A DNA stretch of 64,000 bases, taken from the NCBI RefSeq assembly GCF_900103655.1, contig NZ_FMXC01000001.1:1-64000 (forward strand). The letters are read 5' to 3'. Numbering within the stretch: position 1 is the stretch's first letter; each line of letters begins with the position of its first letter. Below, in pieces: positions 3,073-46,579 of the stretch. The notes under the pieces are model-generated. The model saw nothing but the letters and a program-made list of their open reading frames with translations, was not told where the DNA came from and did no database searches. The position numbers and the translations under genes are program-made. The DNA comes from Lactobacillus kefiranofaciens (GTDB lineage: Bacteria; Bacillota; Bacilli; Lactobacillales; Lactobacillaceae).

Positions 3073-3096
3073 TAAAGCAATGAATGTCCTTTAAAA

Positions 3097-3183
3097 TTAG
3101 TCCCGTGAGGCTAGCAAGGCAGGCTTAAATAGTTTTACTTTACTAAAAGCTCCTAGTCTCAATGTAGGCTGGGAGCTTTTTTC
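3097..3183 (+). promoter_or_regulatory. PyrR-dependent attenuator upstream of pyrR
   Basis: The PyrR-binding sequence AGTCCCGTGAGGCTAGCAAG (from 3099) matches the Bacillus consensus almost fully. It is followed by a terminator with arms AAAAGCTCC and GGGAGCTTTT and a T run (3144-3183). This would make pyrR and downstream genes subject to autogenous, UMP-dependent attenuation. Confidence 0.9.
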
Positions 3184-3206
3184 ATGGGCAGAGTTAGGAG
3201 AATTTT

Positions 3207-3783: not shown

Positions 3784-3878
3784 GACTCCAGAGAGGGCCA
3801 GAAGGGTTGCTTAGTTTTTCGTATACAAAAATACGGAGAAGAAGCCTGGAGCAATTAAATGCTTCAGGCTTTTTTTGA
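3784..3878 (+). promoter_or_regulatory. PyrR-dependent attenuator upstream of pyrB
   Basis: The leader between pyrR and pyrB has a PyrR-binding sequence (GACTCCAGAGAGGGCCAGAA from 3784). A terminator hairpin with arms GAAGCCTGGAGC and GCTTCAGGCTT and a run of seven T ends 16 bases before the pyrB start. Confidence 0.9.
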
Positions 3879-27906: not shown

Positions 27907-27935
27907 TTGATTTCATTAAAAAAGCTTGCTAAATT
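27907..27935 (+). promoter_or_regulatory. Promoter of the ABC transporter leader
   Basis: TTGATT (27907-27912), 17-base spacer, TAAATT (27930-27935). A start near 27942 would give a leader of about 310 bases before the first ABC gene. Prediction from hexamers. Confidence 0.5.
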
Positions 27936-27992
27936 AAATATGTATGATATTATTTTAAATAATTAGTAGAAACAGAGAGGTTTTATTGCCAT

Positions 27993-28016
27993 ATGATTCG
28001 TTTACGTAAGTTCTAA
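27993..28016 (+). CDS. Seven-codon leader peptide MIRLRKF
   Basis: An ATG at 27993 with an AGAGAGG ribosome binding site (27974-27980) opens MIRLRKF followed by TAA. The R-L-R motif is the +X+ sequence (as in the ErmDL leader MTHSMRLR) known to stall ribosomes when a macrolide is bound. It lies in the leader of an ABC transporter pair and upstream of an intrinsic terminator, as expected for a drug-induced attenuator. Short frames occur by chance, so this is a hypothesis. Confidence 0.5.
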   Translation: MIRLRKF

Positions 28017-28148
28017 TATTTGATTTGTTGTTTAGCAAAATACTGTATTTACATGCTTATTTAGTGTACCTAATTTTGCTCACATCTCAATTATTAGCAG
28101 TAAGTGAATCTAGGGTAATTTTCTACGTCTAAATTAGCCTTTATTTGT

Positions 28149-28190
28149 TGCACTGTTTTTGAGAGTGAGTATCTCATGGCAGTGTTTTTT
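28149..28190 (+). terminator. Leader terminator upstream of the ABC transporter genes
   Basis: Nested hairpin: outer GCACTG / CAGTG and inner TGAGA / TCTCA, followed by TTTTTT. It is 65 bases ahead of the ABC gene with no gene end just before it (pepX is divergent), so it can only act as an attenuator of the ABC transcript. Confidence 0.75.
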
Positions 28191-28255
28191 CTTTGCAATA
28201 AATCATTATTAGATTCAGAAAAAAACTAATATTTTTACAAAGAATGAGGAAAATA

Positions 28256-29833
28256 ATGGGTTTAAAAGATTATTTTAAAATTAATCATCAGCGTGCTTTT
28301 TTAGTATTGTTTTTAATTACGTTGACTCAAGCAGCTACTACAGTTTACACCTATTTGACTAGTTCACAGCTTAATGCTTTGTCTTAGGGAAAATTTGTCT
28401 ATTTTGTTGTATTGATTGCAGTTCAATTTATTTTCGGTCAAATTTGTAACATTAGCTTTAATTACTCTAATGTACAAAATACTAGACAAACACAGGATTT
28501 GTTTCATCAAGTAAGACAAAAAATAGTTGCACACTATTATCAAAAGCCAGCTAAAGTCTCAGAAATGGAAAATCATTTAGGCAATGATTTGCAGCTGGTG
28601 CAAGAGAGCTATTATGATGTGCTATTCTACTTTGTTTGTGACTTTATTTATATTTTGTTAACTATTGGGACGCTCTTTTCATTTCATTGGTTATTAGTTG
28701 CCTATGCCTTATTAGTTGCCTTGCTAGCAGTTCTTGTCCCTAAGTTACTTGAAAAATATACTAATAAAGCTACAGAAAAAGTATCTAGTAAAAATGCTGA
28801 TTTTTTACATGCCATAGAAAAATGGTTCAATGGACTAGCTGAATTAAGACGATATCAGAATAAAACGGTCTTAAAGAAAGTAGTAGGAAAGAATAGTTAT
28901 CAGCTAGAAAAAAGTGAATATAAACGTGACAAAGCATTAGCTTATACAGCAATGGTAGCTGCAATCTTTAATATTGCTGGGCGTGTCGGCGTACCTTTAA
29001 TTGCTGGAATTTTGTTTTTTAATCATCAAGTTGATTTAGGTGTAATTTTAACGGCTGGGTATTTCGCCAATGGTATTTTCTATAGTGTTGATAGCTGTGT
29101 GAATAGATATATGCAGTTGAAATCGACCAGAACACTTCGTAATCGATTGAAAGTGCTACAAAAAGTAGTAGTTGAAAATCAATATGATGACTTGGATAAA
29201 GTTGATTCTATTCAAGTAAAGAATTTAACCGTTCACTATAAAGCAGGTGAAAGCATTAGTTATCCTGATTTCACTCTTCATCGAAGCGACAAGGTTTTAC
29301 TGACAGGAGATAGCGGTACTGGTAAATCTACTTTGTTAAAAGTAATGCTGGGACAAGTTAAGCCTAAAACAGGTGAGGTGATTTATTTAGATAAGAACAG
29401 TAAGGTTTTACATCCCGATCTAAGGAAACTAGGCTATCTGGCGCAAGATTTATTAATCTTTCCAGGTAGCATTGCAGATAATATCACGATGTTTAATTCA
29501 AAGCTCAATTCAAGAGTTGGTGACCTAGTAGAACAAGTGGCTTTTAAAGACGATCAGGCACGTTTTAATGATGGGCTACAGACAAAGCTGGATCCTCATC
29601 ATGAATTGCTCTCTGGTGGACAGAAGCAAAAAGTAGTTTTAATGCGGTTATTACTGCACCAGACGCCGATTCTTTATTTAGATGAGCCAACTAGTGCCAT
29701 CGATCAAAAAGCCACAACCTTAATTCTGCAGAATTTGATAAAAACAAAGGCAACACTTCTAATGATTGCTCATAATTTAACATCAGAGCAAAAAGCATTG
29801 TTCGATCGTGAAATTTGCTTGGAGGAAAAATAA
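28256..29833 (+). pseudogene. ABC exporter half-transporter, first gene, nonsense mutation
   Basis: An ATG at 28256 (GAGGAAAATA site) opens MGLKDYFKINHQRAFLVLF and meets TAG at codon 44 (28385-28387; probably from CAG). The frame resumes and encodes the rest of a 525-residue exporter: membrane domain, Walker A GDSGTGKST, signature LLSGGQKQK, Walker B ILYLDEPTSAIDQ. Apart from the stop it is intact, so the lesion is recent, or the second half is made from a later start. Its stop overlaps the next gene (TAATG). Confidence 0.85.
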
Positions 29834-31566: not shown

Positions 31567-32361
31567 ATGAATAGAACTCAAGTAAAAGACAACGCCAGAA
31601 AACATGAGGCAATGGTAGAGAAACTGTTTCAAACGCAGATTCAGCAGTCAATTGAAGAAACTATCGTGTATGATCAGGATTCTTTTAATGATAAATCAAA
31701 AAATAATTTTACTAAATTAGCCCAGCAAATCGTTTGGCCACTAGCTACGGATCAAGCAGTAATCAAGGCTTTTAAAACATATAAAGGTCAAAAAATTGCG
31801 GCATTGAATTTTGCTTCATATACTAATCCCGGCGGGGGTTTCTTGAATGGTGCTATGGCGCAAGAAGAAGCGATTTGCGCGCAATCAGATTTGTATCCAG
31901 TTATTTCGAGTCAGAAGAATTTCTATGATTGGAATAAACGGCATCTGAATCAGAAGATGTATTTAAATCGCGCCTTGTATTCACCCGATATTTTATGGGG
32001 CACTTCTACGGTGCCACAGGGGAAGAGTGCTGTGATTACTTGTGCTGCACCTAATAAGAGTGCTGGCCGACGTTTAGTAGAAGATAAAGAAGCACAAATG
32101 AAATTTGAGAGTAACGCAAATAGTGCAATGCTTAGTCGCATGAATTTTGTTAAGCAAATTGCTGAAGAGCAGAAAGTTAATGTCTTAATCTTAGGTGCAT
32201 GGGGAGCAGGCGTCTTTGGCTTTACGGCAGATGAAGTTGCTAAAATGTGGCGGAGAGTTTTTGCTCAGACAAGCAGCATTGAAATAGTAATCTATGCTAT
32301 TATTCCTGATAAACGTAGTAATCAGGCAGTTCGCGCTTTTAAAGATGTATTTGAAAAGTAA
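31567..32361 (+). CDS. Bacterial-type PARG (TIGR02452/DUF2263 macrodomain-like hydrolase)
   Basis: The 264-residue protein contains the PARG catalytic signature in order: NFASYTNPGGGFLNGAM AQEEAIC, i.e. GGG-x6-QEE, at about residues 88-105, then GAWGAGVFGF. These enzymes remove ADP-ribose from proteins (or poly-ADP-ribose). Its gene stands alone between the ABC pair and a PH-SHOCT gene. The link to ADP-ribosylation recalls the broken DarT-like gene 20 kb away, but nothing shows they act together. Confidence 0.88.
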   Translation: MNRTQVKDNARKHEAMVEKLFQTQIQQSIEETIVYDQDSFNDKSKNNFTKLAQQIVWPLATDQAVIKAFKTYKGQKIAALNFASYTNPGGGFLNGAMAQEEAICAQSDLYPVISSQKNFYDWNKRHLNQKMYLNRALYSPDILWGTSTVPQGKSAVITCAAPNKSAGRRLVEDKEAQMKFESNANSAMLSRMNFVKQIAEEQKVNVLILGAWGAGVFGFTADEVAKMWRRVFAQTSSIEIVIYAIIPDKRSNQAVRAFKDVFEK

Positions 32362-46465: not shown

Positions 46466-46579
46466 GTTGTATTTGTGGAGACCTCCACATCTGCAACCGC
46501 ACGGCTTGAGGTTAGAAGTCTTCTTGTGTAAGAAGCACCCCAGTTCGGCGAGTCTAAGTATTTTTTCGGAGGTGTACAA
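46466..46579 (+). promoter_or_regulatory. L21 leader RNA (ribosomal protein leader)
   Basis: The 5' UTR before rplU has the hairpins typical of the Firmicute L21 leader: GTGGAGACCTCCAC, then a conserved stretch (TCTGCAACCGCACGGCTTGAGG) and GTCTTCTTGTGTAAGAAG, followed by CCAGTTCGGCGAG. This leader is thought to mediate autogenous control by ribosomal protein L21. Called from position and structure, not by covariance model. Confidence 0.7.

Follow-up and report, generated by a model that had tools for sequence, protein, structure and literature searches.

The leader of a two-gene ABC exporter operon in Lactobacillus kefiranofaciens is, with a probability that we put at about 0.8, a ribosome-mediated transcription attenuator of the exporter pair, a variant of the vmlR/BmrB kind with an upstream ORF (uORF) of seven codons. 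Comparison between genomes and RNA folding point to a conserved leader ORF, three mutually exclusive helices, linkage to the exporter genes and a likeness to the leaders of ABC-F genes. The window, by which we mean the whole stretch of 64,000 nt that was analysed, is included in a 2.28 Mb draft genome, and its features are collected in Table 1. In the proposed mechanism the ORF and its flanks would pair with segment 2 when no ribosome is held on the leader, leaving segment 3 free, and the terminator would form (off). If a ribosome stalled within the ORF, at about codons 3–7, segment 1 would be covered; segment 2 would then pair with segment 3 as an antiterminator, and transcription would enter the exporter genes (on). 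We infer that such stalling takes place, the signal most likely being a ribosome-targeting antibiotic or a similar translation inhibitor. Our confidence was lowered slightly because the antiterminator register of the window differs from the consensus and because the ribosome occupancy test is purely a folding calculation.

Table 1. Features of the exporter locus and of related leaders; coordinates are those of the window unless a locus is named.
Feature	Coordinates	Strand	Remarks
Promoter (putative)	27926–27953	+	TTGCTA, 16 nt, TATTAT, TG before the -10; the scan found 6 vs 6.0 expected, chance level
Shine-Dalgarno-like AGAGAGG of leader ORF	27974–27980	+	GAGG in 14/14 leaders
Segment 1 (initiation region, ORF, post-stop bases), 5' side of predicted anti-antiterminator	27985–28020	+	RNAalifold, pair counts
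Leader ORF, 7 codons, MIRLRKF	27993–28016	+	ATG ATT CGT TTA CGT AAG TTC TAA
Possible NusG-type pause motif TTATTT (TTNTTT)	28057–28062	+	Between segments 1 and 2; column kept in 14/14 leaders
Antiterminator hairpin (predicted)	28077–28171	+	Single-sequence folds 14/14, consensus counts
Segment 2, 3' side of predicted anti-antiterminator	28090–28119	+	28093–28109 also 5' side of consensus antiterminator
Intrinsic terminator	28150–28190	+	Stem 28150–28157 / 28178–28185, then T run
3' side of helix with 28012–28029	28197–28213	+	Possible in read-through RNA alone; 93.3% of 210 cells paired; weak covariation
ABC exporter half-transporter A	28256–29833	+	Start ATG 28256; TAG inside the frame at 28385–28387 (codon 44)
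ABC exporter half-transporter B, 517 aa	29833–31386	+	Open; start overlaps the stop of gene A
MEN/MKN leaders before Vga/Msr-like ABC-F genes	L083 1122–1335, L084–L092, L105		R1/R2 matches
MRF/MRN three-codon leaders	L095 3272–3444 (minus strand), L107 1070–1268, L108 1035–1219		G010, G060, G009

The leader was searched for in 75 Lactobacillus genomes, with a close orthologue of gene A, the first exporter gene, taken as one of 56% identity or more. Among the matches listed, 14 genes in 13 genomes (own included) were at least 56% identical to gene A, the others reaching 43% at most, and the leader lies upstream of all 14 close orthologues. A DNA search with the leader (E <= 0.001) gave matches in 19 of the 75 genomes; 13 of these (14 places, own included) contain full leaders, and six with matches of just 27–35 bases were dropped as chance. 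The seven-codon ORF, which stands in the window as originally predicted, is retained in every one of the 14 leaders. Its start, stop and peptide (MIRLLNL) are identical in 13/13 homologues, and the four variable sites of the homologous ORFs are all synonymous. In most pairs the synonymous sites of gene A are close to saturated (pS ~0.55–0.8), and against this background agreement in all seven residues strongly indicates constraint; pairing of the RNA rather than coding could be partly responsible for the synonymous pattern of the ORF. MIRLRKF is confined to the window, where three of the seven codons have changed in meaning.

A degenerate MIRLLNL pattern was present in 12 of the 75 genomes at 13 places, every one at this locus, and a wider uORF pattern was found in 12 of 397 Lactobacillaceae genomes, seven of them in the genus and at this locus. 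The five remaining genomes with the wider pattern were taken as chance matches: L074 and L075 are inside long ORFs, L076 has the same flanks as L075, L077 is a MIRLLNF before an unrelated gene, and L073 was so judged when viewed as sequence. The string MIRLLNL was not found in the open-licence PMC papers searched.

The AGAGAGG sequence had been described as a good ribosome binding site; it is present, but at 12 nt it stands rather far from the leader ATG. Among the homologues, GAGG lies 10–11 nt 5' of the ATG in 12 of 13 cases and 13 nt away in G026, where an extra in-frame ATG one codon upstream could also serve as start. Loss of the ORF and its ribosome binding site from related leaders had been named in the original prediction as evidence against it; both are conserved (ORF and GAGG each 14/14). 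An alternative start, TTG 27986 (window frame MPYDSFT), is better spaced from AGAGAGG, yet its frame is not conserved: the start is absent in G067, the residues and length of the frame differ between species, and the candidate was rejected. At the -10 position of the putative promoter an ATGnTAT block is kept in 14/14 leaders. A role for TTNTTT in pausing is possible, on the single analogy of vmlR.

Folding of the whole leader gave a z-score of -2.96, beyond chance expectation. The helices of the off state were derived by RNAalifold on the leader alignment alone, and pairs were counted on alignment A2 (14 leaders) and in 500 shuffles. In the predicted structure the initiation region (27985–27990), the ORF (27995–28007) and post-stop bases (28013–28020) pair with 28090–28119. 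Conservation of stem pairing had been expected, and standard pairs do fill 97.6% of 490 cells (0/500 shuffles as high). In 16 cells both partners have changed (the shuffles average 4.4; 0/500 as high), the covariation score is 0.257 vs 0.210 in the shuffles (0/500 as high), and the pair statistics lie far above those of slid controls; within the ORF, position 28001 forms a U-A pair with 28104 in nine leaders and a C-G pair in three. Two counts speak against the attenuator: the number of pairs with a double change, six, is reached by 23/500 shuffles, and the pair-type count, reached by 283/500, is no better than shuffled.

The orphan terminator noticed originally is confirmed: its arms show covariation in G018 and G067 (CACTG/CAGTG to TGCTG/CAGCA) and 99.1% of cells pair; a simple consensus scan for terminators found none at 28150–28190. 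The stem (start 28150) begins 133 nt after the stop codon of the leader ORF, which ends at 28016. No clear antiterminator had been recognised at the outset; one is now predicted by consensus counts as well as by single-sequence folds. The consensus form pairs 28093–28101 with 28152–28160 and 28103–28109 with 28143–28149 (93.8% of 336 cells), and because it uses segment 2 of the off helix together with the 5' arm of the terminator, it should be mutually exclusive with both. Its covariation is weak, 146/500 shuffles reaching as many double-change pairs and 25/500 as many paired cells. When the region up to the terminator loop was folded singly, a long hairpin of -24.6 to -37.3 kcal/mol resulted in 14/14 leaders. 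The window alone among the 14 adopts a shifted register (28097–28107 with 28141–28151, 28077–28090 with 28159–28171), in which the 5' terminator arm is still enclosed. The complementary blocks pointed out earlier, AGCAAAAT / ATTTTGCT, do exist at 28034–28041 / 28073–28080, but AGCAAAA is kept in just 4/14 leaders. The combination first proposed, a leader ORF, a terminator and an ABC pair, is conserved as a unit, and a switch between mutually exclusive folds is predicted for it. No Rfam family matched at gathering score on the window leader, nor on L037, L083 or L095. Elsewhere in the window Rfam recognised a PyrR binding site and an L21 leader (3084–3185 and 46485–46565).

Ribosome occupancy was simulated by folding the transcript between an assumed start at 27960 and the T run, the ribosome being represented by a 31-nt mask. 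The free RNA had a terminator probability of 0.86 or more in 14/14 leaders. With the P site placed in silico on codon 5, this fell below 0.5 in 10/14 (in G010 only to 0.49); the non-switching leaders are one close group, G013, G028, G005 and G060b, where it stayed at 0.56–0.97. With the P site on codon 1 it remained at 0.66 or more in 13/14, the exception being the window, which already switches. Shuffling of segment 1 (27985–28022) left a switch in 17/280 trials vs 10/14 for the native leaders, the shuffled controls failing mostly because the free RNA no longer makes the terminator. A sliding mask had its effect where it overlapped segment 1, which in the window means from -20 to +30 of the ATG; placed at +120, near or on the terminator stem, it cost 7/14 leaders part of their terminator. 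For the window, the free terminator probability hangs on the assumed RNA start (0.95 from 27960, 0.24 from 27977), and the consensus core of the antiterminator has a probability of only 0.06 in the masked RNA.

A covariance model of the 14 exporter leaders (R1) was run on the 75 genomes. It recovered all 14, 10 further leaders in 10 other genomes (E 7e-8 to 5.6e-6) and four weaker places (E 0.007–0.044). All 10 further leaders stand directly 5' of a gene for a 516–522 aa ABC protein without a membrane part (ABC-F), and their ORFs have three codons, MEN (8) or MKN (2). One of these ABC-F proteins was scanned with NCBIfam and scored 324 bits to a ribosomal protection-like ABC-F model (cut-off 380) and 319 bits to the Vga family (cut-off 725); judged by its sequence it is Vga/Msr-like, and with scores under the cut-offs it is no certified member. 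When the 24 leaders are aligned jointly, 94.8% of 1063 cells are paired and 26 of the 49 pairs are changed on both sides (0/500 shuffles as high); this result is favoured by the fitting of the alignment to the structure.

The joint model (R2) added a leader in G007 (MKN, same ABC-F gene) and, before a second ABC-F-like gene, leaders in G010 and G060 (MRF) and G009 (MRN). With R1 the 10 ABC-F leaders had scored 46–55 bits and the MRF leader of G010 just 27 (R2: 41 bits, E 8.8e-5). Five antisense R1 matches on known leaders scored 26–30 bits, and scores near 30 are therefore no evidence; R1/R2 matches in G066, G031 and G016 were judged by eye to be chance. Among 201 genomes of the family (8 of the genus), R1 found its own leader only, and R2 gave 10 matches, all within the genus, in 397 family genomes, the search filters being such that weak matches are lost. 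In G032, R2 also hit what looks like a decayed leader (L106, 3219–3447, minus strand) that has a terminator but has lost its uORF and the ABC-F gene; the remnant adjoins the same upstream genes as in G007.

In silico, a P site on the start codon removed the terminator in 10/10 ABC-F leaders, although it returned at codon 3 in L087 and L089; of the exporter homologues, folded in the same run, 9/13 switched at codon 5 and 0/13 fell below 0.69 at codon 1. By analogy of design the MEN, MKN, MRF and MRN leaders belong with the uORF leaders of vmlR, CplR, VmlR2 and LsaA. The likeness between exporter and ABC-F leaders may reflect shared ancestry or convergence. Tentatively, Lactobacillus may possess one RNA switch design that serves two kinds of defence against antibiotics, ABC-F proteins of the ribosome-protection type and a membrane exporter pair, the length of the uORF tuning the drug class: a three-codon ORF would fire at the start codon and MIRLLNL further in, in response to elongation-stage, peptide-dependent inhibitors, with MIRLRKF a re-tuning. 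We regard this extension as doubtful.

The product of gene A has the domains of an ABC exporter with a membrane domain (PF00664 + PF00005). In the window only the TAG at codon 44 breaks its frame, the remainder being open, as is gene B. Homologues of gene A are open (525–527 aa) in 11 of 12 checked, the exception, G010 (L013), stopping after 163 aa; with the window, this makes two interrupted copies of the gene among the 13 examined. Gene A has a gene B match 3' of it in 12/12 loci checked, although in G067 the contig ends within that match. In G028 (L008, ~3790–3803) the gene B match extends over two reading frames, and gene B may be interrupted there. The interruption of gene A in the window counts against an attenuator in this particular genome. 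Nevertheless, pN/pS for the window gene A is 0.26–0.40 vs its relatives, and 0.12–0.43 among the relatives, i.e. ordinary constraint, from which it follows that the stop is recent, or is an error in the sequence, or is circumvented by initiation at an internal TTG (28412).

The exporter had been called drug-type, which the proteins do not bear out: among the best 25 of 181 and the best 25 of 162 NCBIfam matches, all are to generic ABC families and lie under curated cut-offs, and the PDB matches listed are likewise generic ABC exporters. Downstream of the exporter pair, 31567–32361 encodes a protein with a microbial-type PARG domain (TIGR02452).

The original prediction had seen in R-L-R a possible +X+ sensor of macrolides of the kind known from ErmDL. 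The gene under the control of ErmDL is ermD, which codes for a methyltransferase. With telithromycin, translation of ErmDL halts at R-L-R while Leu occupies the P site (PMC8298421), and by this analogy the R-L-R of the window peptide M-I-R-L-R is a plausible stall site. As a conserved sensor the motif fails: R-x-R had been expected to recur in related leaders, yet the R/K-x-R/K signature of ErmDL-type leaders occurs in the window only and R-x-R in 0/13 homologous leaders, all of which read MIRLLNL. On comparison of the sequences R-L-R is a lineage-specific change, and it is confined to a genome with an interrupted gene A. Under erythromycin, ErmDL still stalls fairly well once its arginines are lost (PMC8298421), so MIRLLNL may yet respond to a macrolide; and as the constraint on gene A is ordinary, the operon may still have been in service when MIRLRKF appeared. 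Weighing these points, we consider it unlikely that the attenuator is specifically a macrolide or ketolide sensor acting through R-L-R. MIRLRKF may represent re-tuning of the sensor or early decay. Decay of the window element, or a useless product, is a reading that we would give roughly one chance in three, and it is compatible with a working attenuator in the relatives. It draws on the TAG in gene A and the interruption of the same gene in G010, on the three leader codons altered in the window only, and on the register shift of its antiterminator; the open remainder of gene A, the open gene B and the ordinary pN/pS, with the origins of the stop that it allows, argue the other way.

A leader that gauges the supply of Leu, Ile or Arg in the manner of trp/leu-type attenuators would account for a MIRLLNL in which three of seven residues are leucine. 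The three-segment layout is also that of amino acid attenuators. Its target is nevertheless an exporter pair, and the related ABC-F leaders (MEN, MKN, MRF, MRN) are without leucine, so that the RNA design is shared and the composition is not; we think this reading very improbable. Marginally less probable still is a riboswitch-like leader that binds a ligand or a protein and has no need of the short ORF. In its favour are the size and conservation of the fold, and an aptamer or protein factor was proposed in 2010 for such 'ABC-leaders' (PMC2965389), but ORF, start, stop and peptide are kept in 13/13 homologues, the ORF sequence doubles as the 5' arm of the predicted switch, and no Rfam family was matched at gathering score.

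Ribosome-mediated attenuation of the exporter pair, the reading preferred here, would provide a further case of such control of an ABC exporter after bmrCD, in lactobacilli and with a minimal sensor of seven codons, and the comparative structure is good enough for the design of tests. The likeness to the ABC-F leaders suggests that one switch has been reused for different resistance functions, and it opens to experiment the question whether the drug that is recognised depends on the length and peptide of the uORF. Attenuation through uORFs is documented for ABC-F genes (PMC9226507, PMC10201436); lactobacilli are not mentioned in the available text of the uORF4u paper (PMC10219788). In vmlR of B. 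subtilis a Met-Ile-Asn uORF lies within an anti-antiterminator, and the leader also has a TTNTTT pause motif, an antiterminator and a terminator (PMC9226507), and the uORFs of CplR, VmlR2 and LsaA read MR[I/M], MK[L/Q] and MAGN (PMC10201436). The window leader shares with vmlR the uORF in a predicted anti-antiterminator, the antiterminator, the intrinsic terminator, TTNTTT and an ABC-protein gene downstream. It differs from vmlR-type ARE-ABCF leaders in that its uORF has seven codons instead of being a tri- or tetrapeptide (MIN in vmlR) and its target is a membrane exporter pair instead of an ABC-F gene; moreover, the 13 exporter homologues mostly need a ribosome at about codon 3 or later in the simulation, not at the start codon.

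A parallel in target is bmrCD of B. subtilis, a two-gene multidrug ABC transporter for which ribosome-mediated transcription attenuation was reported as a first (PMC4191407). Its leader BmrB (yheJ), however, is an ORF of 53 residues with the terminator inside the coding region, whereas the terminator of the window lies well beyond its seven codons, clear of the leader coding region. MsrDL of msrD also combines a very short ORF (MYLIFM, 6 codons) with an intrinsic terminator and an ABC-protein gene; the peptide is unrelated, the target is an ABC-F gene, and erythromycin stalling at the stop codon is proven for MsrDL (PMC10314930). ErmDL has R-L-R in common with the window peptide and with 0/13 of the homologues (PMC8298421). 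In the same genus, a 2010 survey described an 'ABC-leader' with a predicted terminator and antiterminator, located ahead of an operon for multidrug export in L. gasseri and L. johnsonii (PMC2965389). The text of that survey names no leader ORF and leaves the mechanism open, and the two elements are likened here by description only (PMC2965389). They are possibly the same element, in which case ribosome-mediated attenuation would offer a mechanism for the 'ABC-leader'.
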